A stretch of 32,831 nt of DNA, from the IMG/VR virus record IMGVR_UViG_3300007609_000060, positions 1 to 32,831 of that record. One strand, given 5' to 3'. Below the pieces are notes generated by a model. It searched no databases, had not been told where the DNA came from, and worked only from the letters and a program-made list of their open reading frames with translations. The DNA is from a virus. Shown piece after piece: positions 1,242 through 20,500 of this stretch (its first letter is position 1; every line of letters begins with the position of its first letter). The position numbers and the translations under genes were made by a program.

Positions 1242-1503
1242 AAAGAGTGAAAAATTTCAGAATGAATATAATGAATATAGAAAAAAAATTGATGCATTAG
1301 ATAATATGAGAGTTAAAGCAGAATTAGAAGGGTTATTAGAAAAATTAATTGCAGAAATTCGAAATATCGATCGACAGCATCAATTACTGGTTAATCGAAA
1401 TACATTAGCTGATATTACAGCCGATTCTAAACATAAAGTTGTAGACATTAGAAGAAAAATTGCAAAGCTTTTAGAAGATTATGATCGAGCAAAAGTTAAA
1501 TAG
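1228..1503 (+). CDS. Small coiled-coil protein
   Basis: 91 residues, highly charged (Lys/Glu/Arg/Asp) and almost entirely predicted helical, with heptad-like spacing of Leu/Ile through the middle (KAELEGLLEKLIAEIRNI). No Cys, signal peptide or membrane segment. The start is supported by a GGAG sequence about 10 nt upstream, inside the end of the Nudix-fold gene, which it overlaps by 14 nt, suggesting translational coupling. I do not recognise the family. Small coiled-coil proteins beside T4-like structural genes are often assembly or scaffold factors, but that is inference. The stop codon lies inside an 8-nt tail-to-tail overlap with the next gene. Confidence 0.65.
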   Translation: MVSLEKSEKFQNEYNEYRKKIDALDNMRVKAELEGLLEKLIAEIRNIDRQHQLLVNRNTLADITADSKHKVVDIRRKIAKLLEDYDRAKVK

Positions 1504-2359
1504 CTGAAAAACTCTTAATTGTTATTGCTCCGACCATAACGCCGTGTACTGAACATTGATATCTATAGTTAGGTGGTGAAGTAGTACTGATTGGTATTTT
1601 CCAATATAATGTTCCGCTAGTTTTTCCTTGGGCATCTGCTCCAGTACTTACTGTTCCAGTTGTAGACACATGAATTAATCCTGTATTAAAATTTGTACCT
1701 GTAGAATCTTGTATTAAAAATGGGTGGCCTGGAATATTAAGGTTAAATGCAATTGTTGTTCCGCTTATTGTAAAAATTGTCGGATTATCACTAGTGCCGT
1801 ATTGATCAAATCTGTAAGCACTTGCGCCGTTATTTGATACTGCTAACATAGTAATAGCTGGCAAGTAAAATCTATCCACGGTTAAAGATGCAGAATCATC
1901 TAAATCAGTAAATGAAGATGCCCCAGAAGAACCTGAATAGTTTATAGTTAGTGTGTCACCAGAAACGGCTGTAGATATACTAGATCCTCCAGCTATAGTA
2001 AGTGTATCTGTTGAAGTATTAGCCGTTGTGCTTCCACTATCTCCTTCTACGGTAGCAAATAAATTTTGCTCAACACCATCGCCGCCTCCAGACACTGTGC
2101 TTCCTATGGTTACTGTATCAGTATCAGCATCGGTAGTAATAATAACATTAGATCCTGCAACTAGTGTTAATGTATCGTTTGTCGAATCTGCTACTACATT
2201 GCTTTGTCCATCGACTGATATTATATTAAAAGAATTAGGAATTGATGCGGCAGTCGAGGAACTTACAATGTTCCATGCAGTTCCATCAAACTGCCAGGTA
2301 ACGTCGCCTTCGCTATATGTATCGTCTGTTTGTGGGTCTGTTGGAAAGTTTAGTGCCAT
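1496..2359 (-). CDS. Fibre-like structural protein with C-terminal cupredoxin-like domain
   Basis: 287 residues. Residues 1-35 hold a W-Q-F-D-G-T-A-W unit typical of phage fibre N-termini. Residues 40-150 are Thr/Ser/Asp-rich beta repeats (DTLTLVAGS, DTVTIGS, DTLTIAGG, DTLTINYSG) as in fibre shafts. From about 150 a separate domain begins, ending in NIPGHPF (His212) and QCSVHGVM (Cys269, His272, Met275). In cupredoxins one upstream His plus a Cys-x2-His-x(2-4)-Met loop bind type 1 copper; the loop here has the spacing of amicyanin. AAGGA precedes the ATG and a late-promoter-like motif lies 18 nt upstream. Fibre role and copper binding are inferred; the ligand pattern is directly visible. Confidence 0.75.
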   Translation of the reverse strand: MALNFPTDPQTDDTYSEGDVTWQFDGTAWNIVSSSTAASIPNSFNIISVDGQSNVVADSTNDTLTLVAGSNVIITTDADTDTVTIGSTVSGGGDGVEQNLFATVEGDSGSTTANTSTDTLTIAGGSSISTAVSGDTLTINYSGSSGASSFTDLDDSASLTVDRFYLPAITMLAVSNNGASAYRFDQYGTSDNPTIFTISGTTIAFNLNIPGHPFLIQDSTGTNFNTGLIHVSTTGTVSTGADAQGKTSGTLYWKIPISTTSPPNYRYQCSVHGVMVGAITIKSFSAI

Positions 2360-2377: not shown

Positions 2378-2385
2378 TATTTATT
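2378..2385 (-). promoter_or_regulatory. T4-like late promoter motif AATAAATA
   Basis: Read on the minus strand the motif is AATAAATA, 7 of 8 matches to the T4 late consensus TATAAATA. It overlaps the last codons of the protease gene and ends 18 nt before the ATG of the cupredoxin-type fibre. The same spacing is seen at three other motifs in this window. Confidence 0.5.
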
Positions 2386-4417
2386 TTTTAAATCGCAATC
2401 CGCTGACACGCAGGTTAGAAAAAACTTTTCTTTCCCCTGGTATGAATCTCTGATCTATATTTGCCTGGTATATAACCTTTGCTGGGCCGCCTTCTAAACT
2501 TTCGTAATCTTCCCAATTTGCGTCAGTAGGAGTTGTTGATTCTACGCCGTAATAAAAGTCACTGGCATCCTGATTTTGCAAAGATTCCAACCATTCTAAC
2601 ATTTCTCTCCAAGTCCAATCTCTGTTATGTTCTAACACGGTAGCAAGCAGTCCGCAAGCTACTGGACAGGCGGCACTTGTTCCGCCAAACGCACAGTCGT
2701 GTGCTGTGCCACCATTAAATGTTAATCCATTATATGTATCTGGCCTTGGGCCTTCATTAGTATAAGTTTTGTTTGCCGCTAGTGTTCCATCAGCAGGAGC
2801 ATATAGATCTATACCGTTTCCTCTATCACTATAGCTTACTTTAGATTCTAATCCTGTGTTAAAATCATCATCTAATGCACCTATGTTAATAGTTTTATAT
2901 TGTATTAATCCGTTCTCGTCGGTATACATTCCGCCTTGTTGAGGGAATCCTCTTCGATTTGTAGTCCCAAATACATTTACACCAAACTCAGTGAAGTTAG
3001 AATCTGCTAAACTCCCGCCATCTGTGTCTGTAATATAATTATCATAATCTGGATGATCTGATTGTACTTGTTTTTGGTTGCTGTTTCCTGAAGCAACTAC
3101 AAAAATAACTCCGCTGTCGATAAGCTCGTCTTGGGCAGTAGTTAGTGAGTTAGTTTTCATTTCTGACTTCCAACGACCAGTGTCTCCTTGTGTGCCCATA
3201 TGAGAAATAAACAACGGTTCAGAAGTATACGAGTTATTAGCAGATGCACGATGAGTATAATAATATGTACTACCGCCTGGATCTTTGTTAGCTCTATATC
3301 CCCAGCTGTTAGACATTATTGTAGGATCTTTTGTGTTATACTCTGAGTTTACTGGTTTTAGTTGATGAAATAGTTTTGTTAAATCGAATCCTTGTTCGAT
3401 TCCACTGCCATAACTTCCATATAAATCTAATGTCCATTTATTGGCATTATAAGCCCAGCCTTGTGTTCTACCAAATGTAAGAGCACCGCAAGGTGTTCCG
3501 TGCTCACCTTCAGATATCGGTCCAATGGTAATTGGTTGTTGGGTATTATCTCCGCTGGTATTTAATCTTGTATAGTTACTGCTAATAATAACAGTACCAG
3601 CATCGGCAAACTTACTGCTTCTCTGACTAGCATTACTCCACCATGTTCTTGCTACGCTTTCAACTGGGACTCGAGTACTATCCCAACGAGTTGTTAATCT
3701 ATTGTCTGGATCAGCGTCGAACCACTCTGGGTCAATATAGTAAGGTGAATCTAATACCAAATCTAACACATCACAAGTACCATTGCCCGGAAGTAAGTTT
3801 CCTCCGGTGTAACCATTTGGATTTTCCACACTTGTTTGACTATCTGATGAAAGAACACAATTGTTTTGAAATTCTGGATGTCCTATCCACATTCCTTCGT
3901 CTGCTACTACAACATCTACATTCTTTCCTGTACCGTATTGTTGTATATTGGTGTTAACTACAGCACTGTCAGCTAAAGATCCATCTACCCAAGGATCTAA
4001 AAATTGTTGGCAGCGTGTTAATTGATATCCAGTTCTATTTGAATCTGTAGCATCTGGACTTCCTGGAAGAGTATCTGATGTTTCAAATTCTCTATAATTC
4101 TTTATAGATCCAGAATATCTAGATAGTAGAGGAGGAGCTGTCATTTGAAGTTCTTTTGGTGGAGGAGCAAACTCTTCCGGATATTTAGAATAGTCTATAT
4201 TAATAAATTTTACTCTAGAATCTTGTTTTAATTCGTTGGCTTCATCTTCAGTAAGTAAATAAGTACCTCTTGTAGGACTATGAGGCTTATCATCCTCAAC
4301 TCGGACTGCTCTTGTCGGAACTGCTTCGTATTGATTTCCATCATTTATCAACTCTTGATGTAGTTCAATCCACTCTTCGGTGGTATGCGTTCCTAATTGG
4401 TAAAATTTTTCCGACAT
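2381..4417 (-). CDS. Subtilisin-like serine protease (peptidase S8 family)
   Basis: 678 residues with the catalytic elements of subtilases in the right order: Asp173 in VVVADEG, His306 in GEHGTPCG, the oxyanion Asn445 in VVASGNSN, and Ser581 in GGTSAACPVACG; SNSWG (369-373) matches the substrate-binding strand. The gap between Asp and His (about 130 residues) is far longer than in subtilisin and must hold an insertion. Residues 1-90 could be a propeptide or virion-binding segment. There is no Sec signal peptide, which fits an enzyme packed into the virion or acting in the lysing cell rather than exported by the host. It lies between two fibre genes, 8 nt after the upstream one, with AAGG before the ATG. 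Substrate unknown: fibre maturation or digestion of host surface protein are both possible. Confidence 0.85.
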   Translation of the reverse strand: MSEKFYQLGTHTTEEWIELHQELINDGNQYEAVPTRAVRVEDDKPHSPTRGTYLLTEDEANELKQDSRVKFINIDYSKYPEEFAPPPKELQMTAPPLLSRYSGSIKNYREFETSDTLPGSPDATDSNRTGYQLTRCQQFLDPWVDGSLADSAVVNTNIQQYGTGKNVDVVVADEGMWIGHPEFQNNCVLSSDSQTSVENPNGYTGGNLLPGNGTCDVLDLVLDSPYYIDPEWFDADPDNRLTTRWDSTRVPVESVARTWWSNASQRSSKFADAGTVIISSNYTRLNTSGDNTQQPITIGPISEGEHGTPCGALTFGRTQGWAYNANKWTLDLYGSYGSGIEQGFDLTKLFHQLKPVNSEYNTKDPTIMSNSWGYRANKDPGGSTYYYTHRASANNSYTSEPLFISHMGTQGDTGRWKSEMKTNSLTTAQDELIDSGVIFVVASGNSNQKQVQSDHPDYDNYITDTDGGSLADSNFTEFGVNVFGTTNRRGFPQQGGMYTDENGLIQYKTINIGALDDDFNTGLESKVSYSDRGNGIDLYAPADGTLAANKTYTNEGPRPDTYNGLTFNGGTAHDCAFGGTSAACPVACGLLATVLEHNRDWTWREMLEWLESLQNQDASDFYYGVESTTPTDANWEDYESLEGGPAKVIYQANIDQRFIPGERKVFSNLRVSGLRFKK

Positions 4418-4425
4418 AGTCTACC

Positions 4426-5628
4426 TTAAATTAAATTAGTCCAGCTGCCGTTTTCATAACCTTGAAATTTATTGAGTGTTGTGTTATATATAACATCGCC
4501 ATTTTGAGCAACAAGTGCATCTCGTTGGGCGGTAGTAAATCTAGCCATTCTTATTGGGCCTGTTGTAAGATCTACTCTAGTTCCAGCATCTAGATTAATT
4601 TCGTTATCTGATACAATTTCTGGAGTTCCTGACCCTTGGCTGGAAATTTCTCCAGTTAGTGTTAAATCTGTAATAAACGCTCTTTCAGTAACTAAATCGT
4701 TTTCTACCGTTAAATCACTCTGCATAGTAATTGCAGGTGTTACTGTGATTGCAGACGAATCGGTTGTATCTATGTTTGTTCCTGTAAACGAAAAACTTCC
4801 TAGTGATACATCGCCGGGTTGCCAACGACTATTAGATGTATTCCACAGTAATGCTTGACCGTCAGTTGCACTAACCTGTGATAAAGCATAAGTGTTTAAT
4901 TCGCTAGTACTAGTATCTACTAATAATGTCGAATCATCTCCTAAAATTGTAGAACTTATTGTTGCAGGTACACCAATATCAGATTGATCAGCAAGCTCTA
5001 CCCAATTTCCTGCGTGGGCATAATATGCTTTTCCTGTAGCATGAACATGTGCAAACATTCCATGATAGGTACTAGCATCGGGTAAATCTCCTAAACTAGA
5101 ATACACATTTGCAAATAAAATTCTATTAGCTCCGAAATCATAGGTGCCTGATACATAAGGGTCGCCTATAACATCTGCGAACGACGGAAGTGTCGGTTTA
5201 TTATTTAAGTCGTCATAGTCTCCACTAAATGCAGGAAATGCTGGTTGTATCCATTGTTCAGAATCACCATCGTCGATATATACATATAAGGCACCGTTAG
5301 TGGTGTTTAACCATAAGTTGCCATTTTCTGGGGATACAGGTAAAGATTCGCCTACAGTTACGCTGGTACTTCCACTACCAGCAATACTGCTTCCGTCGCT
5401 GGCTGATATTCCTGCCGATGCAGCTTTTGCTGCAAAATCACTGTCAGAAATGTTACTTAAATCGGCTCTGGCTAAATCAAGTCCTCCCTTAGTAACACCG
5501 TCAAATAATGTTAAACTATTATTTTCTCGATCCCAAAATAACTCACCTCTAGATCCAACTCGTCTCGATAGGAATCCCGATTCTCTAGGAATAATTCTAA
5601 TAAAATTAAATGTTTCTGTACTAGGCAT
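4426..5628 (-). CDS. Tail fibre protein with receptor-binding-type N-terminal domain
   Basis: 400 residues. Residues 15-60 (GELFWDRENNSLTLFDGVTKGG) match the G-E-L-x-x-D-x-x-x-x-x-L-x-x-x-D-G-x-T-x-G-G signature that opens many phage fibre and receptor-binding proteins. The middle holds fibre-type units (GNLWLNTTNGALYVYIDDG, SGDYDDLNNKPTLP) and beta repeats. The C-terminus has ARFTTAQRDALVAQNGDVIYN then a K-F-x-G-Y-x-N-G-S-W-x-N-L ending, a frequent fibre-tip motif in marine phages. It is first in a three-gene minus-strand run (fibre, protease, cupredoxin-type fibre). A late-promoter-like motif lies 20 nt upstream. Long or short tail fibre cannot be decided. Confidence 0.8.
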   Translation of the reverse strand: MPSTETFNFIRIIPRESGFLSRRVGSRGELFWDRENNSLTLFDGVTKGGLDLARADLSNISDSDFAAKAASAGISASDGSSIAGSGSTSVTVGESLPVSPENGNLWLNTTNGALYVYIDDGDSEQWIQPAFPAFSGDYDDLNNKPTLPSFADVIGDPYVSGTYDFGANRILFANVYSSLGDLPDASTYHGMFAHVHATGKAYYAHAGNWVELADQSDIGVPATISSTILGDDSTLLVDTSTSELNTYALSQVSATDGQALLWNTSNSRWQPGDVSLGSFSFTGTNIDTTDSSAITVTPAITMQSDLTVENDLVTERAFITDLTLTGEISSQGSGTPEIVSDNEINLDAGTRVDLTTGPIRMARFTTAQRDALVAQNGDVIYNTTLNKFQGYENGSWTNLI

Positions 5629-5801: not shown

Positions 5802-6416
5802 ATGCAGATGATACCAATTTTCGGCACCTGGGTAGGAGTAGCACCAATACACAGCTTAAATATACAGAGTGCGTTAGAGTATGTGCAAGTATGTGATGAG
5901 GAATATGCATATGGCGGTGATAATGGTAGCGTAACTGTAACACAGAGATTGCTCGATGCTGAAATATTTAAGGATGTGAAACTAGAGTGCGAAATATTAT
6001 CACATGAATATGCGAGACAGCAAGGGCATCAAGTAGAAGCAGTAAGGATTACTAGTTCGTGGGGCAATACACTTAAAAAGAATGAGCCAATACATGTTCA
6101 TATGCATCCTAACAGTTATGTAAGTGGTGTATTTTATCTAACAGACGGTGCTCCTTTGAACTTTCATAGCCCTTTTCAAACAGAGGATCTATTCACACTT
6201 AGACCATTAGTACAATGGGAGGAACATAACGAATGTACTTGGCAAGTACTCAAATTACCAATCAAGGCTGGTTATGCAATATTGTTTCCTAGTAGACTAA
6301 AACATCATGTAGATATGAATACAAACGACTATAGATATTCCGTTGCGTTCAATACAATGCCAACGGGGTCAATAGGCGATAGCACAAAAGAATTAAACAT
6401 AGTTGAGGTAAAATAG
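5802..6416 (+). CDS. Putative 2OG-Fe(II) oxygenase (TIGR02466-like)
   Basis: 204 residues. The N-terminus (MIPIFGTWVGVAPI) fits the x-L-F-P-T-P-x-Y opening of this phage/bacterial family. The iron-binding region HVHMHPNSYVSGVFYL (His98, 100, 102) is followed by the distal block LFPSRLKHHV (His168/169) and an Arg178 in DYRYSVAFN suited to bind the 2-oxoglutarate carboxylate. Family members are presumed to hydroxylate a protein, sugar or small molecule; the substrate is unknown. It is followed after 1 nt by an SGNH-like gene on the same strand. Four more oxygenase-like genes with the same F-P-x-x-L-x-H distal block lie on the opposite strand within 5 kb. Confidence 0.8.
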   Translation: MQMIPIFGTWVGVAPIHSLNIQSALEYVQVCDEEYAYGGDNGSVTVTQRLLDAEIFKDVKLECEILSHEYARQQGHQVEAVRITSSWGNTLKKNEPIHVHMHPNSYVSGVFYLTDGAPLNFHSPFQTEDLFTLRPLVQWEEHNECTWQVLKLPIKAGYAILFPSRLKHHVDMNTNDYRYSVAFNTMPTGSIGDSTKELNIVEVK

Positions 6417-6417
6417 C

Positions 6418-7293
6418 ATGCCAACATTACACACATTTGGTTGCAGCATTACACAGGGTTTCGCACTTCCAGACGTGGTACGACCGCCACTCACAGCAGA
6501 AGAAGAATCGGCACTAGACAGACCTAGCCATTGGTCAGATGAGCACATACTAAAACCAAGCAAACACGCTTGGCCGGCAGTACTCGGCGATCTGCTTAGT
6601 ATGCCAGTGGTTAATCATGCGCGACGCGGAAGTTGTTTCCAGCAGATTGCAAGGCAGTGTGCAGTTGCCGCGGACGAAATACAGAGTGATGATCTAGTAA
6701 TTGTTATGTGGACATACCTAGGTAGAATAAGCATGCAATGGCCTGCAAGAACTTCAGTTCCATTACATCATTACATAGATGCCAAGAAGAGCTGGAGCAC
6801 CTGTATGTGGCCTGGATTCAATAAACTATTTGGACTAAGCCCAAGCAAGGCTAGTGCTATAGGCAGTAATATTGTAAGTCCCGTTGATGATCAATTGTAC
6901 ACATACATACATGAAAGCACACAATATGCATTCAATCCATTAGGAATATATGACAGATTTCACAACTATCTATTGCTACAGATTATGACTGACGGATTCT
7001 TAAAGTCAAAGGGCGCAAGAGTCATGCATCTAAGTGTCGAGGCTGAACCATACTTGGAACAACTAGAGAGTGCTGCTAGGAATCTTGATCCTTCTCTGCA
7101 GGAACCGTGGGAAATTCCAAATCCTAGAGATTGGTATGAAATTGCGGTTGATCATAACAGTTGTGAAGTAATACTTGATCCCAGTATACCTCCAGCAGAG
7201 AATGATATGCATCCAAGCGTGACACATCATAAAAATTTTGCTAATCATATCTATCAAGAATATTTTTTAAATAATTCGACTCTTAATATGTAA
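6418..7293 (+). CDS. SGNH/GDSL-fold hydrolase-like protein
   Basis: 291 residues. Block I is FGCSITQG near the N-terminus (Ser10), in the place of the usual G-D-S-x-T, with Cys for Asp. The C-terminal catalytic block is ENDMHPSVTHHKNFANHIY, giving Asp263 and His265; the Asp-His spacing is one residue shorter than the usual D-x-x-H. SGNH enzymes act as esterases or O-acyl-transferases on sugars and lipids. No signal peptide or membrane segment, so a cytoplasmic or virion role is likely. The start lies 1 nt after the oxygenase stop, giving a two-gene unit. The 3' end overlaps the convergent HAD gene by 27 nt. The protein at 9763-10491 has a matching C-terminal block. Confidence 0.7.
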   Translation: MPTLHTFGCSITQGFALPDVVRPPLTAEEESALDRPSHWSDEHILKPSKHAWPAVLGDLLSMPVVNHARRGSCFQQIARQCAVAADEIQSDDLVIVMWTYLGRISMQWPARTSVPLHHYIDAKKSWSTCMWPGFNKLFGLSPSKASAIGSNIVSPVDDQLYTYIHESTQYAFNPLGIYDRFHNYLLLQIMTDGFLKSKGARVMHLSVEAEPYLEQLESAARNLDPSLQEPWEIPNPRDWYEIAVDHNSCEVILDPSIPPAENDMHPSVTHHKNFANHIYQEYFLNNSTLNM

Positions 7294-7887
7294 CGAATCT
7301 GTTACTATATTATTTTTTGCATCAATATCAGGTAAAGAAGAAGCAAACTCCCATAAATTATCAAATATCAAAGTTTTTTTCTTAAGATTTTTGTAAGTAA
7401 ACTTTTTTATCGTTTTCTCTGTTTCTTCACCGTACCCAGTGCGCACTAATACAGGAGTAGCCTTTATTTTTTCTGCTGATTTTAAATCAGTTAGCTTATC
7501 ACCAACATAGAAGCCACCTTTAAATTTTAAATTGCATTCAGCTTCTGCTTTCTTAAACATTCCAACATTAGGCTTAGCAAAGAAGTCGTCTTTGAAATTA
7601 GTATGACTATAGTAAATTCCGTCTATACTTGCGCAGCCGGCCTGACCTAGCAGATTAAGCATATAATCATGCACAGTAGCAACTTGATCTGTAGTCATTA
7701 TACCTTTGCTAACTCCAGCTTGATTAGTTAATACAACAATATTGTATCCTTTTCTTCTAAGAAGTGCAACAGCTTCCAAACTGTTTTCAATAGGAGTAAA
7801 CTGTCCAGGATTGGTAACATAAGTACCTAAATCTTCATTTATCGTTCCGTCTCTGTCTAATCCAATTGTTATTGATTTTTTAGTCAT
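7267..7887 (-). CDS. HAD-superfamily phosphatase, GmhB/HisB-N-like
   Basis: 206 residues with all HAD motifs: LDRDGTIN (nucleophile Asp11, acid Asp13), VLTNQAGV (Thr54/Asn55), Lys105 in AKPNVGMF, and VGDKLTDL (Asp130, Asp134). Overall order matches D-glycero-D-manno-heptose 1,7-bisphosphate 7-phosphatase (GmhB) and the histidinol-phosphatase domain of HisB. The Cys-x-His ... Cys-x-Cys zinc loop usual before the motif III Lys is missing: the segment is YYSHTNFKDDFFAKP with one His and no Cys. A sugar-phosphate phosphatase fits the operon, but a polynucleotide 3'-phosphatase cannot be excluded. Last gene of the minus-strand run; overlaps the plus-strand SGNH gene tail to tail by 27 nt. Confidence 0.8.
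   Translation of the reverse strand: MTKKSITIGLDRDGTINEDLGTYVTNPGQFTPIENSLEAVALLRRKGYNIVVLTNQAGVSKGIMTTDQVATVHDYMLNLLGQAGCASIDGIYYSHTNFKDDFFAKPNVGMFKKAEAECNLKFKGGFYVGDKLTDLKSAEKIKATPVLVRTGYGEETEKTIKKFTYKNLKKKTLIFDNLWEFASSLPDIDAKNNIVTDSLHIKSRII
7290..7318 (+). terminator. Weak terminator-like hairpin after the plus-strand pair
   Basis: GTAAC (7290-7294) and GTTAC (7301-7305) form a 5-bp stem with a 6-nt loop, followed by an AT-rich stretch and T6 at 7313-7318. It overlaps the stop codon of the SGNH gene and lies inside the convergent HAD gene. The stem is short, so this is tentative. Confidence 0.25.
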
Positions 7888-7903
7888 AATTGTTAACTCT
7901 TTA

Positions 7904-8569
7904 TCACGTCGGGTCTATTCTAATGTTACCTGACACACTTATTCTATAGTCGTCTGATGTATAAAACGGATATACGATGTGCTGAAGACTAGCCGGAAAC
8001 ATAAGTATAGTTCCTTCAAAAGTCTTATCAACAGGTACAGCCAGGTTTTTTATTTTTCCTAGTACGTCATTATATACAAAACAAAATTTAGATGTATAAA
8101 AATTATCTTTATGATTATCACTGGTCCCTGAGATTAACGGAAAATAATTTACTTCGTCTTCTAAGTTATAAGGTATTTTAAGCCATATAACAAAGCTTAA
8201 CGCCCCTGAATGATGATGTATAGGATTAAACTCGTGTTTTTTTTGTTTGTTGACCCATAAACTATCTAGATATAAATTATACGAGTTGCATTTAGATACT
8301 TCTTCAAACTCATCCAAATGCCCCGGATTAGATTCGGTCCAAGATTTCGCTATAGATAATAACCAATTTTGAAAATAATTCTTTACATGATCCAAAGAAT
8401 ACTCTTCCTTAATATGTCCTTGTAGTCTATGGTTGTAGGGTTCAGAGTCCTTAGAAAGTTTATCTATTTCTAAATTTAAAATATTTTGTAATTCTACAGG
8501 CATTCGAGATTCAATAAATCTAAGATTGGTAAAGTCTCTAATCGATGCCCAATGTGTATCATCGGTCAT
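7904..8569 (-). CDS. Putative 2OG-Fe(II) oxygenase-like protein
   Basis: 221 residues. Iron-site candidates are PIHHHSGALSFVIWLKIP (His118-120) and the distal block MFPASLQHIVYPF (His197), followed by Arg209 in DYRISVSGNI, matching the R-x-S-x-S-x-N-I ending of its neighbours. The first half is helical and unlike the other paralogs. The start is supported by GAGGAAAA about 8 nt upstream. Together with the genes at 8588, 9145 and 10504 it forms a set of diverged relatives in one operon, 16 nt before the HAD gene. Substrate unknown; whether it is active is inferred from the retained His/His/Arg. Confidence 0.7.
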   Translation of the reverse strand: MTDDTHWASIRDFTNLRFIESRMPVELQNILNLEIDKLSKDSEPYNHRLQGHIKEEYSLDHVKNYFQNWLLSIAKSWTESNPGHLDEFEEVSKCNSYNLYLDSLWVNKQKKHEFNPIHHHSGALSFVIWLKIPYNLEDEVNYFPLISGTSDNHKDNFYTSKFCFVYNDVLGKIKNLAVPVDKTFEGTILMFPASLQHIVYPFYTSDDYRISVSGNIRIDPT

Positions 8570-8587
8570 TATAAAAATTTTCCTCTA

Positions 8588-9145
8588 TTAATCGTAAAGT
8601 CTATCAGCATCACTATCTTCTATCAATACATCCATATTCCACGAAATAATTGTTTTGATTTCTTCTGTATTATTATTCGGAGCCCTATGGATTACCCAGC
8701 TAGGAAATGTAATAATATCACCTTCTCGCACGTCAAAAGTGTGAATATTTTTTGTAACAGGATTTATCCATTCTGTTTGTGCTTTATCTTCCGGTAAGTT
8801 TACATAATATACATTTGTAAAGTTGTTACTGTGTGTATGCCATGCATGCTTGCCACCCTTTGCATACTGCTGAAACCAAAGTTCCGTAATTCCAAATGTT
8901 TGGTACCCCATAGTATTACACCATTCGTTGAGATGAACAGCAAGAGGAATATTTATAATTTTTAGCCATTCTCTGTCTCCGTCATACCTTGCTGTATTCC
9001 AGTCACACCTGACAATATCGCTATCAGGCGCAGTGATATGTTCTGCATCTTCTTGCCTTAGAATAGCATCTAGTATTTGTTGTTTTAGTTGATCGTGTTC
9101 TCTAAAAGGTTTAATACTTAAAGGAAATGGTATGATATTGTCCAT
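8588..9145 (-). CDS. 2OG-Fe(II) oxygenase-like protein, Arg site altered
   Basis: 185 residues. The jelly-roll region has KHAWHTHSNNFTNVYYVNLP (His100, 103, 105) and the distal block TFPSWVIHRAPNN (His153). This closely follows the H-x-H-[PS]-N pattern of the TIGR02466-like protein at 5802. At the place of the 2-oxoglutarate-binding Arg the sequence reads EEIKTIISWNM, with Lys164/Thr165. It may use a Lys, bind another co-substrate, or have a changed activity. The ATG shares one base with the stop of the upstream oxygenase-like gene (TAATG), indicating translational coupling. Confidence 0.7.
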   Translation of the reverse strand: MDNIIPFPLSIKPFREHDQLKQQILDAILRQEDAEHITAPDSDIVRCDWNTARYDGDREWLKIINIPLAVHLNEWCNTMGYQTFGITELWFQQYAKGGKHAWHTHSNNFTNVYYVNLPEDKAQTEWINPVTKNIHTFDVREGDIITFPSWVIHRAPNNNTEEIKTIISWNMDVLIEDSDADRLYD

Positions 9146-9759
9146 TAGTACAAATCGCCCTGTCTTTTGATTATTATATTTGATGAAAACACAACTCTTG
9201 GTTCAGTTGTTTGATTATAATATACATAGTGCTCAAGACAAGACGGAAATATAATCAATAATCCTTCTTTCATTATAGGCTCAAAAGTATTTGGATACTG
9301 ATTCATTGGGTCCAGTTCTAGATATTTTAAATGGTTTGAAAAGTTAGGTGTTCTAAAAACAAACTGTCCTGCTTCCGGGCTTGACTGTTTTAATACAACC
9401 ACAGACGAAAATGCCGGTACATTGGTTGTTATATGATTGTGCAACTGTTGGTGATCGTATTGATTGTAAACATTATACCAAGTTTGCATTTCGACTGTGT
9501 ATTGAAATTTAAATAAGAATGAATCTATATAATCTTGAATATAAGGTCCGGGAAGTAATGTGTCATTCCATTTTTTAAAAAAATCAGCATCACCCCAGCG
9601 TTGTGATGAATTTTTAGAAATTCTACTGGCGCTACCTTTATATTCATCGTCTTCTCCATTTAGTGTTAATGGAAGATAATGATCTTGTAGTGTCTTTAGA
9701 TCCGATGCATCTAATTCTAAAATGCCTACAGGATAGCCTTCGAGATGTATTTTTAGCAT
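9145..9759 (-). CDS. Putative 2OG-Fe(II) oxygenase-like protein
   Basis: 204 residues. The proximal site is QQLHNHITTNVPAFSSVVVL (His107, His109). The distal block IFPSCLEHYVYYN (His177) is followed by Arg188 in EPRVVFSSNI, so both His sites and the Arg are retained. The N-terminal 90 residues diverge from the paralogs, consistent with a different substrate. It starts 3 nt after the SGNH-like gene ends and shares one base with the next gene at TAATG. The target is unknown; late expression from the promoter at 13925 is inferred from the uninterrupted run of genes. Confidence 0.7.
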   Translation of the reverse strand: MLKIHLEGYPVGILELDASDLKTLQDHYLPLTLNGEDDEYKGSASRISKNSSQRWGDADFFKKWNDTLLPGPYIQDYIDSFLFKFQYTVEMQTWYNVYNQYDHQQLHNHITTNVPAFSSVVVLKQSSPEAGQFVFRTPNFSNHLKYLELDPMNQYPNTFEPIMKEGLLIIFPSCLEHYVYYNQTTEPRVVFSSNIIIKRQGDLY

Positions 9760-9762
9760 ATT

Positions 9763-10491
9763 CTAAATATCATTCCTACTATATATATTAGTTTCGAACC
9801 CAGTTGTAAGATCTACTTTTTCAAAAGTGTCAAAAAAGTTAATTATTTTATTTGCCAAAATTTTATGATTAACTTCTGAAAAATGATTGAATCTATAATC
9901 TCCAGTTTTATTGTAGTATGCTATAGCCGTCTTTTCACAGTCAAATTCTAATCCTGATGCTTCACACAAGCTTCCTTCTACTCCTTTAATATTGTGGAAT
10001 CCCGGAAGTATCAAACACTTAATGTTTTTTTTGCCATATAATTGGGTCCTAAGTGATAATGAGTCAAGAAACATATTGAAGCGTATTAAGGGGCGTTTTT
10101 CGAAATACAGGTGTCTTTTATACATTTCCAGTGCTTCGTATTCTTTTTTGGTAACCTCAACATCTGGCGTCAAACTGATTCCTAGATTAGTCGCTAGGTA
10201 TGGTTTATTTTCAAAGAACCATTCTCTATACATAGAAGTCAACTGTATTATGATACAATCTCCATCCTTAAAAAATGGTTCTTTTTCGAATAGTTTATAA
10301 TAAATGTAATCATTAGAGCACCCTAGTACTGCGTGATTCTCATATTCGCTATTTCCATATATGCTTTCGTTAACAATTGTGGTCCAATTCTTTTCCAAAG
10401 GCAGATATGTTATAGGAGTTCCTTTAGGTCCAAAAACTTCATTTCTATGAGAATCGGGAATTGAAAAACTATCTCCAAAAACGTGCAACAT
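9763..10491 (-). CDS. SGNH-fold protein
   Basis: 242 residues. Block I is MLHVFGDSFSIPD (Asp7, Ser8), a near-standard G-D-S motif. A further glycine/Asn block appears in VLGCSNDYIYY. The C-terminal block is RFNHFSEVNHKILANKI, which aligns with DMHPSVTHHKNFANHI of the plus-strand SGNH protein (shared H-x-S-x3-H-K-x2-A-N-x-I), so the two are probably distant relatives. The usual Asp three residues before the catalytic His is not in place, so activity is uncertain. Candidate role: sugar O-acylation or de-acylation within the operon. AGAGAG precedes the ATG; 12 nt separate it from the upstream oxygenase gene. Confidence 0.65.
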   Translation of the reverse strand: MLHVFGDSFSIPDSHRNEVFGPKGTPITYLPLEKNWTTIVNESIYGNSEYENHAVLGCSNDYIYYKLFEKEPFFKDGDCIIIQLTSMYREWFFENKPYLATNLGISLTPDVEVTKKEYEALEMYKRHLYFEKRPLIRFNMFLDSLSLRTQLYGKKNIKCLILPGFHNIKGVEGSLCEASGLEFDCEKTAIAYYNKTGDYRFNHFSEVNHKILANKIINFFDTFEKVDLTTGFETNIYSRNDI

Positions 10492-10503
10492 ATTTTCTCT
10501 CTA

Positions 10504-11130
10504 CTAATTTACAGTGATACCAGTTTCTAACAAGATATTAAAAGACAAACTAATACGGTCCTCGTTAGTTGTATTTTCATTAACGCTATGATCCAAGAAT
10601 CCAGGAAACAACAGTAGTCTACCCTGCTCCGGAGGGAATGAATTCTCGTGTGCAAACGAGCTTCCGATTGGATTACATTTTAATGCCTTATGCGAATTCC
10701 TAAAAACTATGTCACCATCCTTACCGTTTGTTTTAAACCAATACACTCCGCTAATATGGCTAGTTCCGTGATCGTGAATGTGAGAAGAAAGTCCAGTCTT
10801 GGTTAGTGAAAGCCATGAAGTTTCGATTGCTGTTTTATAATTTGGCTTAACATTCATCGCTGCCATATAATTGTAGCAATGATGCATAATAAATTGCGTA
10901 ACAGCTTTCATATCTTTAGACTTTAAAATATTTTCAATAAAATTTCCTTTATTAGATAGATACTGCGAAGAACTATTCCAATTTGGGTTTTGTCCCCACT
11001 GATCTTTCGTATAGAGTTCGTCAACTACAGTCTGTAGTTCGGCTTGTACATCTGTATATTCCGTGTTTTCTAGTTTGTATGTATAAAGAGGGGTAGGAAA
11101 TAATGTAAAAATTTGTCCCTGAGAGTCCAT
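10504..11130 (-). CDS. Putative 2OG-Fe(II) oxygenase (TIGR02466-like)
   Basis: 208 residues and the clearest family member here. The N-terminus IFTLFPTPLYTYKL is typical of the family. The iron site is SSHIHDHGTSHISGVYWFK (His117, 119, 121), the distal block is LLFPGFLDHSVNENTTNEDR (His181, Arg192), followed by ISLSFNI. All expected metal and 2-oxoglutarate ligands are present, so I expect an active hydroxylase or oxygenase; the substrate is unknown. Two nt separate it from the carbamoyltransferase upstream, placing it third in transcription order in the modification operon. Confidence 0.8.
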   Translation of the reverse strand: MDSQGQIFTLFPTPLYTYKLENTEYTDVQAELQTVVDELYTKDQWGQNPNWNSSSQYLSNKGNFIENILKSKDMKAVTQFIMHHCYNYMAAMNVKPNYKTAIETSWLSLTKTGLSSHIHDHGTSHISGVYWFKTNGKDGDIVFRNSHKALKCNPIGSSFAHENSFPPEQGRLLLFPGFLDHSVNENTTNEDRISLSFNILLETGITVN

Positions 11131-11132
11131 GA

Positions 11133-12956
11133 TTATTCTCGTTCGTTATGATTTATATTTACTAACATTTTTGTTGCAGGAAAATAGATGTAATTAATTC
11201 CTGAATTGTAAAGAGTACGCATTGCATCATCGATAGTTTCTACTAATGGTTCACCACCTAGATTAAAACTTGTATTAAAAAGTGCAGGCACTCCTGTTTG
11301 ATTTTTGAATTCTTTAATTAGATTATACCAATGAAAGTTTTGTTCCTCTGTTACAGTTTGAATTCTACAGGTGCCGTCTATGTGTATAACTGCTGGTATT
11401 TTTTCTTTTACACCTGATTGGCAATTAACTGCATACATCATACTTGGAGAATCTTCCATACCGCGCAAATCAAACCAGTCATGTACATCATCATGCAGCA
11501 CCGATGCGGCAAACGGGCGGAAGTATTCACGCTTCTTAACCAAATTAACAAAATCCTTACCATCTGGATCTGTTGGATCATACATTAGTGAACGATTACC
11601 TAATGCTCGAGGTCCACTTTCACCTCGTTCTTGATACAATGCTACAATGTTTTTCTGTCTAATAGTGTCGATGACTTGTTCGTAATCGACATTGTATTCT
11701 ATAGTGCCGTCGTATTTTTTAGCACATTCGACAATTTTTTCTTCTGTTATGTGTTGTACCGGACCTAAAAATAAATTTTCATCTTTTGATCTTACTTTTG
11801 TATCTTGAGATGTTTTATAGTAATGATAAAATGCTGCACCTATAGCTGTACCTGCATCGTTCGAAACAGGTTCAACATATATCTTTACGTCTTTCGGTAA
11901 ATGCTTTAAAAAGAAATAATTAGCAACACAATTTAGAGCATAGCCGCCGCTAATAACAATGTTTTTATTGCCGGTTCGTTCAATTGATTTTAAAATTAAA
12001 TCAAGCACTAATTGTTGTGATTCTACCTGAACATTATACGCCATATTTCGTCGTGACGGCAGTAATGTAACATCTTCTGCATCTGATTTTTGTAAAAGTT
12101 CATTGGCTTTATTTTTTTGATTTTCATCATTTGGGTCTGTAACAGCATTAACTATTTCATTAGGGTCGTAAAGTCTGTCTCTAATTTCCGGAAATTGCGA
12201 ATCATCAACCCATGCTCCATTTGGATATGTATTAGTAAATAGATCTTTATTACCGCCAAAATTACCATAAATCTTAGGTGCTTTGTTCGGTTCTCCATAC
12301 GGAAACAAACCCATAGTTTTACCCGCTTCTATTGAGTCGAATCCACAAAATCTAGTTACCGCTTCGTATGCTTTAACAATACCTGCTTTATCGTTAATTA
12401 TAACTTCTGTACCATTGCCGTCACTATTATAGTGTTCAGTACTCCAAGGTCCGTTGCCTCCAAAATGCTTGTACACTTCCTCGAAGTTTGCAGGGTATGA
12501 ACAATCATATATACTTTCAACTTCAAACATAGTTTGGCCATCAGGACGTTCAATAAATGTGCCTGCGCCGTCGACAATAACAGCACTTGCTTTCTCAAAT
12601 CCAGATCTATAAAACGCGGCGGCCGCATGACTTCTATGATGTTGATCGTGATATTTAAATACTTGGGTATCGACATCGTCGATTAATCTCAACTTCCTAG
12701 CAAGTGCAGAATACACATCTTGCCTTACATAATCGTTCATCGGCTCGTCATGATCTTGTGTGTGAGATATTGCCAAATAATCGATCTTGTCAGTATAATC
12801 AAGAATTTTGACCATACTCGCGAGCGGTCCGCCGTCATATTTTTGGCGAGATAATCTTTCTTCTTCGATTGCAAATACAATTTCGCCATCCTTTAAAAGG
12901 CATACGCCTGCGTTGTGTCCTCGAGCAATGCCTGCTATATAACCTGTTTTTTCCAT
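11133..12956 (-). CDS. NodU/CmcH-family O-carbamoyltransferase
   Basis: 607 residues, full length for the family. N-terminal Kae1-like part: IARGHNAGVCLL (His14; usually G-H-D-A-S), HHRSHAAAAFYRSG (His106 and His110, metal-binding H-x3-H), VIVDGAG (Asp129). C-terminal part: GGYALNCVANYFFL, VSNDAGTAIGAAF, RGESGPRALGNRSLM and FRPFAASVL, all family signatures. The enzyme moves a carbamoyl group from carbamoyl phosphate, via carbamoyl-AMP, to a hydroxyl on a sugar or other acceptor. Known acceptors include Nod factors, antibiotics, LPS heptose (WapO of Pseudomonas aeruginosa) and, I recall, 5-hydroxymethylcytosine in phage DNA. Its ATG shares one base with the stop of the GT9-like gene. Confidence 0.93.
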   Translation of the reverse strand: MEKTGYIAGIARGHNAGVCLLKDGEIVFAIEEERLSRQKYDGGPLASMVKILDYTDKIDYLAISHTQDHDEPMNDYVRQDVYSALARKLRLIDDVDTQVFKYHDQHHRSHAAAAFYRSGFEKASAVIVDGAGTFIERPDGQTMFEVESIYDCSYPANFEEVYKHFGGNGPWSTEHYNSDGNGTEVIINDKAGIVKAYEAVTRFCGFDSIEAGKTMGLFPYGEPNKAPKIYGNFGGNKDLFTNTYPNGAWVDDSQFPEIRDRLYDPNEIVNAVTDPNDENQKNKANELLQKSDAEDVTLLPSRRNMAYNVQVESQQLVLDLILKSIERTGNKNIVISGGYALNCVANYFFLKHLPKDVKIYVEPVSNDAGTAIGAAFYHYYKTSQDTKVRSKDENLFLGPVQHITEEKIVECAKKYDGTIEYNVDYEQVIDTIRQKNIVALYQERGESGPRALGNRSLMYDPTDPDGKDFVNLVKKREYFRPFAASVLHDDVHDWFDLRGMEDSPSMMYAVNCQSGVKEKIPAVIHIDGTCRIQTVTEEQNFHWYNLIKEFKNQTGVPALFNTSFNLGGEPLVETIDDAMRTLYNSGINYIYFPATKMLVNINHNERE

Positions 12957-13897
12957 TATTTTTTTCCTAAGGTAGTTCTTATCTGCTCAATAATTTTATT
13001 AATTGTATCTTTGCTGAGTTTCATTAGATTTTCATTGTGTCTATCAATTCTAACATCCACTACAACTCTTAATGGAGAATACAATCTTTGCCCTTCACCG
13101 TTATCTATTATTTTAAGAGTGCTACTATCAGGATACGAAATATTTTCAGGGAATGTACTTCCTATGACTACTGTGCCTGGTTTTTTTAGAGCATGCACAA
13201 CATGCTGACCTACCGAGTCACATCCTAGGAAATAATCAGCAGCATTAATAATGCCAGTCCATTGTAATAAACTAGCTTGTTCCGGAAGCATTACATTAAG
13301 TGCTTTTTCTGTGGGTATTTTTAATTCGCTCATTAGAATGACGGCATAGTCTTTATTCAACTCTTCAAGTATTGTTATAATATCGCTAACTTCGAACGAT
13401 CTGCCACTTTCATCAACAATAACTCCGCCGTGCATTGTAGCAGTAGATCCAAATGGCTGAAATATTATTACCTTTTCTTTTTTAAAATGCCTTCTTGCCT
13501 CGTTAACTAATTCCTCTCCTGTTGCGATATCTTTTTTACCAATAAAAAGATTATTATATTCTTTTGTTTTTGGAATAGTTTCGGGTGGAACATCATAATT
13601 AATCAACATATCAAAGGCTTGAACTAGATTACATCTTTGAGTAAAATACGCATTAAGTTTATAAGGTTCAGGAGTAATAATCTCTCTGTCTTTTAATTTT
13701 TCAAAAAGATTTGGATCGTTAGCAGGAAATACATTAGATGTTAATATTTTACTAGTTAAGTATAGATCTATCCAGCCTTCGACAACGATAACTGCTGTTG
13801 GGTCTATATGTTGTACGTGGTGTTCAAGGGCGGGGATGGCGCAGAGAACTCTACCTGCGCCACCGTTTATAAAAAATGCTTTTTTCATTAATATCAT
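12956..13897 (-). CDS. GT9/heptosyltransferase-like glycosyltransferase
   Basis: Up to 313 residues. The N-terminus KKAFFINGGAGRVLCAIPALEHH follows the G-x-G-D-x-L-x-x-x-P-A-L opening of GT9 (ADP-heptose:LPS heptosyltransferase) enzymes. The C-terminal half has VIIFQPFGS, then IINAADYFLGCDSVGQHVVHAL and GSTFPEN, matching the donor-binding D-S-x-x-x-H-x-A-x-A-L ... G-x-T-x-P pattern. Donor and acceptor are not known. Two starts are possible: ATG at 13897 has AGAGG only 2 nt away, while ATG at 13888 has it 11 nt away and gives MKKAFF; I prefer 13888. It is first in the operon, behind a hairpin and a late-promoter-like motif. Confidence 0.7.
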   Translation of the reverse strand: MILMKKAFFINGGAGRVLCAIPALEHHVQHIDPTAVIVVEGWIDLYLTSKILTSNVFPANDPNLFEKLKDREIITPEPYKLNAYFTQRCNLVQAFDMLINYDVPPETIPKTKEYNNLFIGKKDIATGEELVNEARRHFKKEKVIIFQPFGSTATMHGGVIVDESGRSFEVSDIITILEELNKDYAVILMSELKIPTEKALNVMLPEQASLLQWTGIINAADYFLGCDSVGQHVVHALKKPGTVVIGSTFPENISYPDSSTLKIIDNGEGQRLYSPLRVVVDVRIDRHNENLMKLSKDTINKIIEQIRTTLGKK

Positions 13898-13980: not shown

Positions 13981-14808
13981 TTACCTGTAAGTAATTCTTA
14001 CTAAGCCGCCAGCGCCAAAGGAACCCCAACATGCGTTTCGTGACGATGTTACATGACCTGCGCCGCCACCACCAGGGAAGGCCGCGTGTGCTGAACAACA
14101 AGCCAAGTTACCTGTGCAAGGATGCTTACCTCCCACTCCATGTGATGCAAAAAATGGCCCTGAAGGAGAACCTGCGACTGAGAAGTGGTCTGCACAACAG
14201 TTGTACTGTCTGTTCATTGAACCTGCTGTGCCTCTAAATACCATATCAGCTCCATATCCTGCTTCGTTACAGGCATTTGCTTGCCAAGTATTATTATATA
14301 TTCCTCTATTACACTGGACATTACCAATGTGACAGTTATAACAGTTTGACACTTTGTCCCAAATAGTCGGACCACCCATGCCGCCAGTTGCGCAAAAGTT
14401 ACTTAGTCCTGTACCCGTAACATAACTTCTACACCCATGTCGATTATTTACATTACACCGACAGCAACAACTACAAGCTGATGATCCAGCAGCACACACA
14501 GTGTATGTGTCGCCGTCGTTAAACCCGTGTACTGATTTTTGTAAAGTTTTTACGGCATAATTACCACCTTGGCCACCAATGCCAAAATCGTTGTCGCCGC
14601 CTGATGAGCCACCAGGACCGCCACCGCTTAATATTTCAAACTTTATCGATGTGATTCCGTTTGGAACAGTCCACTGGCAACATCTACCTCCGTTACAAGG
14701 AGACCACCAATCTGTATCATAAACATATAGTTCAAAAGCTTCAGGAATTTTACATTGATGTTGGTTATTACTAAAAATGATACCTTGGTTTGATAGTTGT
14801 ACTGGCAT
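13981..14808 (-). CDS. Cys/Gly-rich putative receptor-binding adhesin, copy A
   Basis: 275 residues with 22 cysteines (8%), including ACSCCCRC, CC pairs, NCYNCH and ACCSAH. Gly-rich loops (SGGGPGGSSGG, GIGGQGG, PGGGGAGH) and the ending GSFGAGGLVRITY resemble Gly-rich fibre-tip adhesins of marine T4-like phages; such loops can form the polyglycine II stacks known in gp38-type adhesins. No signal peptide, so disulfides would have to form after lysis; metal binding is the alternative. It is about 90% identical, without gaps, to the protein at 15536-16363 (about 26 substitutions by hand, all 22 Cys kept). Its ATG shares one base with the stop of the chaperone gene, and AAAGGG gives the ribosome-binding site. 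Confidence 0.75.
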   Translation of the reverse strand: MPVQLSNQGIIFSNNQHQCKIPEAFELYVYDTDWWSPCNGGRCCQWTVPNGITSIKFEILSGGGPGGSSGGDNDFGIGGQGGNYAVKTLQKSVHGFNDGDTYTVCAAGSSACSCCCRCNVNNRHGCRSYVTGTGLSNFCATGGMGGPTIWDKVSNCYNCHIGNVQCNRGIYNNTWQANACNEAGYGADMVFRGTAGSMNRQYNCCADHFSVAGSPSGPFFASHGVGGKHPCTGNLACCSAHAAFPGGGGAGHVTSSRNACWGSFGAGGLVRITYR

Positions 14809-15535: not shown

Positions 15536-16363
15536 TTAACTATAAGTAATTCTTACTAAGCCGCCAGCACCAAAACTGCCCCAACATGCATTCCGTGACA
15601 TAGTTGAGTGACCTGCACCGCCGCCACCTGGGAAAGCCGCGTGTGCTGAACAACAAGCCAAGTTACCCACACAAGGGTGCTTACCTCCCACTCCGTGCGA
15701 TGCACTAAATGGCCCTGAAGGGGAACCTGCTACAGAAAAGTGGTCCGCACAACAGTTGTACTGTCTGTTCATTGACCCTGCTGTGCCTCTAAATACCATA
15801 TCAGCTCCGCGTCCTGCTTCGTTACAGGCATTTGCTTGCCAGCTGCTGTTATACAATCCTCTATTACACTGTACATTACCAATGTGACAGTTATAACAAT
15901 TTGACATCTTATCCCAAATGGTCGGACCGCCCATACCACCGACTGTGCAAAAGTTACTTAGTCCTGTACCCGTAACATAACTTCTACAACCGTGTCGATT
16001 ATTTACATTACATCTACAGCAACAACTACAAGCTGATGATCCAGCAGCACACACAGTGTATGTACTGCCATCTGTGAATCCGTGTACTGATTTTTGTAAG
16101 GTTTTTACGGCATAATTACCACCTTGGCCACCAATTCCGTAGTCAAAATCGCCACCTGATGAGCCACCAGGACCTCCACCGCTTAATATTTCAAACTTTA
16201 TCGATGTAGTTCCGTCTGGAACAGTCCACTGACAACATCTACCTCCGTTACAAGGAGACCACCAATTTGTATTATAAACATACAATTCATAACCTTCGGC
16301 AATCTTACATTGATGTTGGTTATTAGCGTAAACGATGCCTTGGTTTGATAGTTGTACTGGCAT
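15536..16363 (-). CDS. Cys/Gly-rich putative receptor-binding adhesin, copy B
   Basis: 275 residues, a gap-free paralog of copy A at about 90% identity with the same 22 cysteines, Gly-rich loops and ending. Differences cluster in residues 10-35 (IVYANN, AEGYELYVYNTN) and at scattered loop positions (DFDYGIGG, TVGGMGG, HSTMSRN). These may tune binding while the Cys scaffold is held constant. Its ATG shares one base with the stop of the S74 fibre gene, so fibre and adhesin are translationally coupled. Stop to chaperone start is 11 nt. A host-recognition role is inferred from composition and position. Confidence 0.75.
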   Translation of the reverse strand: MPVQLSNQGIVYANNQHQCKIAEGYELYVYNTNWWSPCNGGRCCQWTVPDGTTSIKFEILSGGGPGGSSGGDFDYGIGGQGGNYAVKTLQKSVHGFTDGSTYTVCAAGSSACSCCCRCNVNNRHGCRSYVTGTGLSNFCTVGGMGGPTIWDKMSNCYNCHIGNVQCNRGLYNSSWQANACNEAGRGADMVFRGTAGSMNRQYNCCADHFSVAGSPSGPFSASHGVGGKHPCVGNLACCSAHAAFPGGGGAGHSTMSRNACWGSFGAGGLVRITYS

Positions 16364-17597: not shown

Positions 17598-20500
17598 TTA
17601 TACTAAAAAGTAATTCCACGCTATTGGGTATCCAGTTACAGGGCCTTTGAAGTTAAACTTACCTCGCATGTTAATAACTGATCCGTCGACTGTTCGTATT
17701 TGATTAGTATTTATAAATACCGATCCAGCCGTTACACTATTCACATTAAGTGATGCACCACCGCCGCCAATCTGTGACGCAATGAATGCTCTAATTGCTC
17801 GCTGTGTTGGTACAACACTATCCGAGTCAGCTGTAAAGAATGGGTCTGAACTAAACTCATCAATACTTGCTGATCCACCGCCTAGTGTAACTTCACCCAA
17901 CGATAGTTCTTGTAGACCTGCAATATTAAATGCATCAGCATTCAATGTTGCAACACCAGTTGACTGTTCAATTGTGAACAAATCACCAACTCGGAAGTTA
18001 CCATCCTGGTCCGTACTTGTATAGAATACACGACCACCGTTTCCTTCTTTAGTTTCTTGAGCCGGGATTGGGTCTTGTGTCGGTGTTCCTGGATAGTTTG
18101 TTTCTTCAAAGCTACCAGTACCAATGTCTAGGAAGTCGTGTCCTGTTAGTCGTACTTGACTAAATCTAATTCTAGTTGTAAGACTAGTGCCATTTTCAGG
18201 AGCTTCTTGAATTGTTAATTCTGGACTTACTTGGAAGAATGCTGTATATGCACCGTCGTTCTGTCCTAAGAAGGTTAACACATTTACAAGTTTAAATGTT
18301 CGATTTGGTAAGTGACCAAATACAATATTTGATCCGGGTACCGGACGCTGGCTTAATCTTCTAACAAATATGAATGCTCCTGGTTGATAGAAATCAGCAA
18401 ATCCGTTACTATTATCGTCATCAACCTCAGCATTAGCACTTGTGTATTCTTGTCCTCTATCTACAAAACTAGGCGTAGCTAATGCTCCTTTGCCTACTCT
18501 AACTTCTACCGGTAGTTCAAATGTGTTATTTGGATCAGTAACTGTCATAGTCGGAGCAGTATCATATCCTGAACCTGGTTCTGTTAATCTAATTACAAAG
18601 ATCTTGGTTTGTGCTACAAAAGCTCTTGCTCGTGTAGTTGCGCCTGTTCTAATCTTAACAGCATGATCGCCATTATCGTTCTGGAACGCTAACCAATATC
18701 CTGTTTTTTGAGGATTACCAAATACAATAGCATTATAACCATCGTTTTGTATTCCGCCGGCTGTTGGTATACTTTCGTCAGTCCAATATAATCCGTTTTC
18801 AGACTTCATTACAAACTGATATCCAGTCTGTCCATTTAAAGTAGCTGTAGCTATGAACAATCCTTGTCCATATCTAACTCTTTGATAACCTGCAGGATCA
18901 TTAGAATCTGGAGATCCGACAGTCATTGCTGTCCAAGTTTCGCCGTCGATGCTGATAGCACCATTATTGCTATCGCTAGCAACTGCTACGAATGCTCCAC
19001 GACCCCATGTTACGCTGGTCCATGTACTGTTAGCAGGTAAGTCTTCTTGTGTCCAAGTTTCACCACCGTCATCTGAATATTCTACAGCATCAGTATTACC
19101 TGTTTTAACAGCAACAAATTTACCCATACCATATGTAACATCAACAAACCCTGTGCTATTTAATGTACCTGTAACATCCCATACTTGGCCGTCTAAAGAT
19201 ATTGCAACTGTGGTACTATCGCTAGCTATTGCAACAAAACGACCGTTACCGAAAACTACTCTTGTCCAAGATGCACTTACTGGTAAACTTGATGAGAACC
19301 AGTTAATACCGTCTGCACTCCATGCTGCTCTTGTTCCGCCAGTAGCAACCGCAACAAATCTTGATACTTTTAGATCTGAAGATCCGTCATCAATTAATCC
19401 TGATGCGACGCCAGTCCAGTTAGTGGTAGGTAATGGTAAGATACGAGTGGACCAATTTTCACCGTCGGTGCTAGTAAATATACCGTTTCCGCTGTTTGAT
19501 TTATTTGCAACAAATAGGCCGTTTAATCCGAAACCTTCTTGATCATATTCAAGAATTTCACCGGTTACACTGTTAATTGCTGTAATCGTAAATGTAATAT
19601 CGTTAGTAGGTGTTTCTCCGCCTAAACTTGTACCTAGAATCTTAAATGTTTCTAGTCTAGAATAATCTAGTCCACCGTCTGTTAATGTAATAATATACTT
19701 CGAACCGTTACGAACTACATCAAATGTAGCGCCAGTTCCAATTCCTGTATAACTTGTAGGTGATAATCCAGTATAGGTTGCGGCAGTTTCACCGAATGTT
19801 GCATCAACCCAGTCTCCTACTTGTGGTAATTCTAAACTGTCTGCTTGGAATCCTGGACTTGTAAAACTAATTGCAGGCTCCATTACATATGTCGAACTTG
19901 CATTTGGACTTACAATTGTTGTTCCTGGAACTACATGATCCCATCCAGATTGGCCGTCACTTTCTCTTACAACATTGGCTAGTTTTGTACCTGCATTATA
20001 TGTACTAACGATACCAAATTGTCCTTGACCAGCTCCGCCGTCAACAAAGACTTTCATACCAACATATGCAGAACTTACTTCTTGGTCTACCGCAGCCAAT
20101 GTTATACTTGATGTTGTACCACCTTGTGCTGTGTTAGCATTTGTTAAATACCCATCACCACCGAACTGCCCACTCGAATCGTCTCCAAGATCAATCAATC
20201 TAACCTGGAACACTGCATCATCACGGAACTCGTCTGCTTCAATATCAACATTTACGCCGCCACCTGTAATAGTGTATGCTACTTCGGTGTAATCGTTACC
20301 AGCATGGTCAAATTCAAAATTGAAAATATCGTCGCCGTTTGTATTTGCGGACCCAATAACTGCATTAAATCCACTCTTATTGTCAATTACCGCAGTATTT
20401 GGTATTTCGTCTGCATCAAATCCTTCTGCTACTGCGCCAAAGTCTCCATACGAACAGTTACCATTAGTACCACGAATACGCCCACCTGATTCTGATAAGT

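Follow-up and report, generated by a model that had tools for sequence, protein, structure and literature searches.

Why would a phage tail protein end in what looks like a blue-copper protein? The question is raised by a stretch of viral DNA of 32,831 nucleotides (IMG/VR record IMGVR_UViG_3300007609_000060), which is referred to as the window in the following. Positions 1496..2359 of its minus strand hold a gene for a protein of 287 aa, whose assignment as a tail protein comes from the ORF list, a PHROG match and viral homologs. The original prediction, made from the sequence alone, had read the end of this fibre-type protein as a cupredoxin fold with a complete type 1 copper ligand set, and we followed it up with structure prediction, fold and profile searches, and an analysis of homologs.

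Architecture of the tail protein

The protein begins with a motif of 34 residues (2258..2359, minus strand, as are all features of this gene), which is common to related fibre-type proteins and has a mean pairwise identity of 57% among full-length homologs. It is followed by a Thr/Asp/Ser-rich, shaft-like repeat region (residues 35–145; 1925..2257), recognized by its sequence and by identity comparison, and by the candidate cupredoxin domain, which comprises the C-terminal ~140 residues (~146–287; 1499..1924) and is delimited by an AlphaFold2 model, PDB fold matches and a profile search. In the PHROG profile search, residues 95–284 match the tail family phrog_677 with E=7.6e-49, and homologs of the protein occur in at least 80 viral loci.

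The presumed copper ligands are His212 in the sequence GHPF (1724..1726), Cys269 in C-S-V-H-G-V-M (1553..1555), His272 (1544..1546) and, in the axial position, Met275 (1535..1537). The residue numbers of the original prediction are exact in the ORF translation, and the amicyanin-type Cys-x2-His-x2-Met spacing that it described is borne out by sequence and alignment.

A predicted cupredoxin fold

An AlphaFold2 model of residues 142–287 reached a mean pLDDT of 86.7 and a pTM of 0.82. In this model, a strand begins right after His212, the last strand but one terminates at Cys269, and His272 and Met275 are located within, or at the close of, the loop leading into the final strand; this predicted arrangement of strands and loops is the cupredoxin layout, with all four residues in the canonical loops. 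The model thus gave no sign of a fold with dispersed residues, which would have spoken against the original prediction. A fold search of the PDB, proposed as a check along with the prediction, gave modest E-values (3e-4 to 3e-3) and TM-scores of about 0.4–0.6, and among the 50 matches listed, all were cupredoxins, copper oxidases, copper nitrite reductases or the copper domain of cytochrome oxidase.

Profile searches point in the same direction. A profile built from 18 relatives (alignment A1), whose distant members share 26–35% identity with the window domain, found the plastocyanin 1b3i as its best PDB match (E=1.8e-5), followed by nitrite reductase, amicyanin, auracyanin and rusticyanin, and when aligned to 1b3i, the phage ligands H, C, H and M coincide with the H, C, H and M of plastocyanin. 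Masking the four ligand columns (X) left seven PDB matches at E<=1, of which six were cupredoxins, the best with E=0.0033. The masked profile thus still finds cupredoxins, if weakly, and the likeness consequently goes beyond the ligand motif. For the window domain itself, Pfam gave no match, and neither did NCBIfam at E<=1, including its amicyanin model TIGR02657; among the 18 relatives, Pfam Copper-bind weakly matches 11 and TIGR02657 weakly matches eight. Both hallmarks of the cupredoxin superfamily, the β-sandwich fold and the conserved His, Cys, His and Met in canonical loops, were found by model, profile and alignment. Judged from model and sequence, residues ~146–287 are a cupredoxin (blue-copper-type) domain with an amicyanin-like loop spacing, as had been predicted for this fibre-type protein.

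Among characterized cupredoxins, the window domain shares with amicyanin both the fold and the Cys-x2-His-x2-Met loop. It differs from it in being fused to a phage tail protein and in having Pro where amicyanin has Asn, directly after the first His; no methylamine-utilization context was seen around the phage domain. Plastocyanin likewise has the same fold and ligand types, but its loop reads Cys-x2-His-x4-Met, a two-residue insert relative to the window domain that is visible in the 1b3i alignment. Cyanophages are known to carry a plastocyanin, PetE, as a separate gene of about 324–369 bases (PMC3037559). Whereas this soluble PetE is encoded by a stand-alone gene, the window domain is part of a longer, 287-aa fibre-type tail protein, and a captured host-type plastocyanin of the PetE kind is ruled out by the x2 spacing together with the fusion architecture.

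Conservation of the ligand site

The original prediction had staked itself on the conservation of these residues in homologs, and all four were kept: the positions of His212, Cys269, His272 and Met275 are invariant across 53 distinct close homologs, as are the same four ligands in the mixed alignment A1. A wider set comprises 214 unique domain sequences, 199 of which retain the complete ligand set. Among the 15 exceptions, 11 are gapped at ligand columns and were counted as fragments or partial matches; of the other four, which include the second ORF of L167, three were inspected (L125, L123 and L004). The losses in L125 and L123 look like degenerate extra tandem copies, and the exception in L004 is a second sub-type of the domain that is shifted by one residue in the alignment. 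This sub-type, also cupredoxin-like (HPLNFSAD...YYWCxNHxxMG), occurs in fibre-type proteins of L004 (2743-3987, plus strand), L007, L042 and L060, and in the latter two it shares an ORF with the first type.

As A1 was too diverse for a pattern scan, sub-alignments were used instead. A few further C..H..M motifs, missed by the profile, occur in ORFs of the loci analysed; those inspected likewise stand in cupredoxin-like contexts, which, together with the conservation of the ligands, rules out a chance motif. The motif cysteine is the sole cysteine in 147 of the 199 domains that bear Cys-x2-His-x2-Met, and Cys269 is the only one in the entire 287-aa protein by residue count; with no second cysteine, a role in an intramolecular disulfide is ruled out for the window protein. 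As read from these alignments, the four-ligand site is under selection.

The Pro after the first His is also invariant in the domain family. In plastocyanin and amicyanin, Asn is usual at this place, and by sequence comparison the second shell of the putative copper site thus differs from theirs. Since the type 1 site of multicopper oxidases likewise contains His-Pro, the Pro does not rule out copper. Taken from model and alignments together, phage tails probably carry copper via this domain.

A C-terminal module of tail proteins

The domain is much more widespread than was first supposed. It forms the end of cyanophage proteins named gp9, of a minor tail protein, of a short protein named PetE and of subtilisin-like (S8) proteins, and it lies close to the end of a Bellamy tail fibre and of an Actinomycetia phage protein. 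In 176 of 199 ORFs, a count from a permissive list that includes weak secondary matches, the last domain match ends no more than 25 residues from the C-terminus. The genome of P-SSM2 alone has five matches at E<=0.01, and a fold search of viral models in BFVD returned gp9, S8, proximal tail fibre and S74 proteins. The domain accordingly moves among phage tail proteins, such as gp9, fibres and S8 proteins, as a module that usually takes the C-terminal position, and its carriers are hundreds of aquatic, mostly marine, phages.

Among the carriers is cyanophage gp9 (baseplate wedge tail fiber connector; phrog_677, T4-GC 398), which has the same C-terminal domain as the window protein. The two are not alike over their full length, as the window protein matches phrog_677 only at positions 218–411 of 412. 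A copper-type domain is named in none of the gp9-type annotations.

Related domains are also found in cellular organisms. Secreted proteins of Bacteroidota (L254-L259), some with collagen-like repeats before the domain, end in it, and secreted gammaproteobacterial proteins (L263-L273) have a more distant form, in which His-Asp replaces His-Pro; both groups have signal-peptide-like N-termini. A pattern scan of genome contigs yielded two loci, and in the classes to which these belong, a profile search at E<=1e-10 found the domain in 8 of 247 and 14 of 229 genomes.

The domain might be purely structural and, holding copper, another soft metal or no metal, stabilize a C-terminal cap or aid assembly without host contact. 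The conserved domain closes many tail proteins that are unrelated to each other, and gp9-type copies lie among baseplate genes, as one would expect of such a part. On the other hand, a metal-free cap would have no use for four invariant ligands, one of them a lone cysteine, and the domain is also found on secreted bacterial proteins; we regard a purely structural role as rather unlikely, though the strongest of the competing explanations considered here.

Association with subtilisin-like proteins

The gene for the 287-aa protein is the last of three co-directional genes, separated by gaps of 8 and 21 bases. The block begins with a fibre-like protein of 400 aa (4426..5628, minus strand; phrog_9729 tail fiber, E=3e-21; phrog_677, E=1.7e-13), followed, directly upstream of the 287-aa gene, by an S8 subtilisin-like protein of 678 aa with Asp173, His306 and Ser581 motifs (2381..4417, minus strand; Pfam Peptidase_S8, E=1.2e-14; phrog_9158, E=1.4e-91). 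The nearest isolates, judged by this S8 protein, are cyanophages with about 42% identity. The family phrog_9158 itself unites S8 protein and domain, its positions 5–559 matching the S8 gene and 591–695 the cupredoxin domain.

Elsewhere in the window, two near-identical glycine- and cysteine-rich proteins of 275 aa (13981-14808 and 15536-16363, both minus strand), one of which matches Gly_rich_2, lie on either side of a gene that weakly matches tail-fibre assembly, and two giant tail-fibre proteins (17598-25442 and 25475-31057, both minus strand) carry four and five CBM_5_12 carbohydrate-binding stretches. A cargo block at 5802-13897, which includes a 2OG-Fe(II) oxygenase (5802-6416), several putative look-alikes and a carbamoyltransferase (11133-12956), is suggestive of surface or fibre modification.

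S8 proteins and the cupredoxin domain are also neighbours in S-SSM7 and S-SCSM2R; in S-SSM7, the S8 gene is followed by a gp9-named protein, in the same order as in the window. In S-H9-1, the two are fused. In a relative of the window's S8 protein on a MAG contig labelled Gammaproteobacteria (L091, 4576-6984, plus strand), the domain, at about residues 465–607, is inserted between the catalytic motifs, and the S8-type proteins of L098 (863-3937, plus strand) and L125 (464-3586, plus strand) contain a row of up to five cupredoxin matches; one extra copy in L125 has lost a ligand His. In one viral scan, the S8 serine motif was present in 74 of 82 domain ORFs. Given the adjacency here and the fusions elsewhere, the S8 protein is, as far as gene order and protein architecture tell, a partner of the cupredoxin-domain tail protein.

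Does the domain then exist for the sake of the protease, to target, hold or regulate the subtilisin-like protein on the tail? Fusion, insertion and adjacency all speak for this, but an S8 gene lies within the fetched DNA in only 21 of 80 window-family loci, and the 59 loci without one, an upper bound given the short contigs, fit it poorly, as does P-RSM4, where gp9 stands beside baseplate genes and no S8 gene is annotated nearby. We find such a dedicated role highly doubtful. We are equally sceptical of the proposal that the site cycles between Cu(I) and Cu(II) during host contact, as an electron carrier or redox switch: it would make use of all the type 1 ligands, and the relatives of the domain among blue-copper proteins are electron carriers, but neither the window nor the annotated gene neighbourhoods examined showed a partner oxidoreductase, and the fusions are to fibres and S8 proteins instead.

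A possible role in surface contact

Among homologs of the 287-aa protein, mean pairwise identity is higher in the domain (64%) than in the preceding shaft (49%), and this speaks against a strain-specific receptor tip. The reading that we tentatively prefer, while holding it for somewhat short of an even bet, is that the domain is a conserved module for surface contact, clamped by copper, rather than the hypervariable host-range determinant of the tail; that copper is bound, that the domain is exposed on the virion and that it serves in contact are all inferred. The tail protein would be made metal-free in the host cytoplasm, and a single copper ion would enter its pre-formed site in the periplasm or once the cell has lysed. 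This ion would clamp the sandwich into a stable, conserved surface module, which may then make generic, non-strain-specific contacts to the cell surface and work alongside the subtilisin-like protein of the tail. The identity difference and the several copies per genome count in favour of generic contact, and the occurrence on secreted bacterial proteins in favour of extracellular use; the many domain copies with no S8 gene in the fetched DNA count against a contact module partnered with S8.

For a more specific form of contact, the closest idea in the literature concerns iron. HxH motifs of phage tail fibres have been proposed to bind iron, and iron on the tail fibres of marine phages has been proposed to serve in host attachment (PMC11705849). 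These motifs resemble the domain described here in being a metal site proposed on tail proteins; metal, ligands and fold are all different. By analogy, tail-held copper could be a lure that is recognized by a metal-uptake or copper protein of the host, and the conservation of the ligands would fit this. Bacteria and phages with different hosts share the domain, though, which is a poor fit to a single receptor, and a metal lure appears distinctly unlikely to us.

The most far-reaching claim, that aquatic phages use a real copper-loaded type 1 site in infection, for a copper-dependent attachment or a redox step coupled to the tail-borne subtilisin, is in our estimate unlikely.

Implications

What had been predicted for a single fibre-type protein is a module that moves between tail proteins of several kinds and is linked to a subtilisin-like protein. 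The cupredoxin fold as such is already known; its use as a conserved phage tail module was not found in open-access papers, which, judged by titles and abstracts, contain no description of a cupredoxin or blue-copper tail domain of phages, although it may be mentioned elsewhere. Many ‘hypothetical’ and ‘gp9’ proteins could now be re-annotated. Metal on the tails of marine phages has so far been discussed for iron, and a conserved blue-copper-type site that recurs within genomes on the tail proteins of aquatic phages, cyanophages among them, raises the question of whether phages carry and use copper. If a copper-loaded site is indeed used in infection, virions would make up a widespread oceanic pool of copper-binding protein that has so far gone uncounted.
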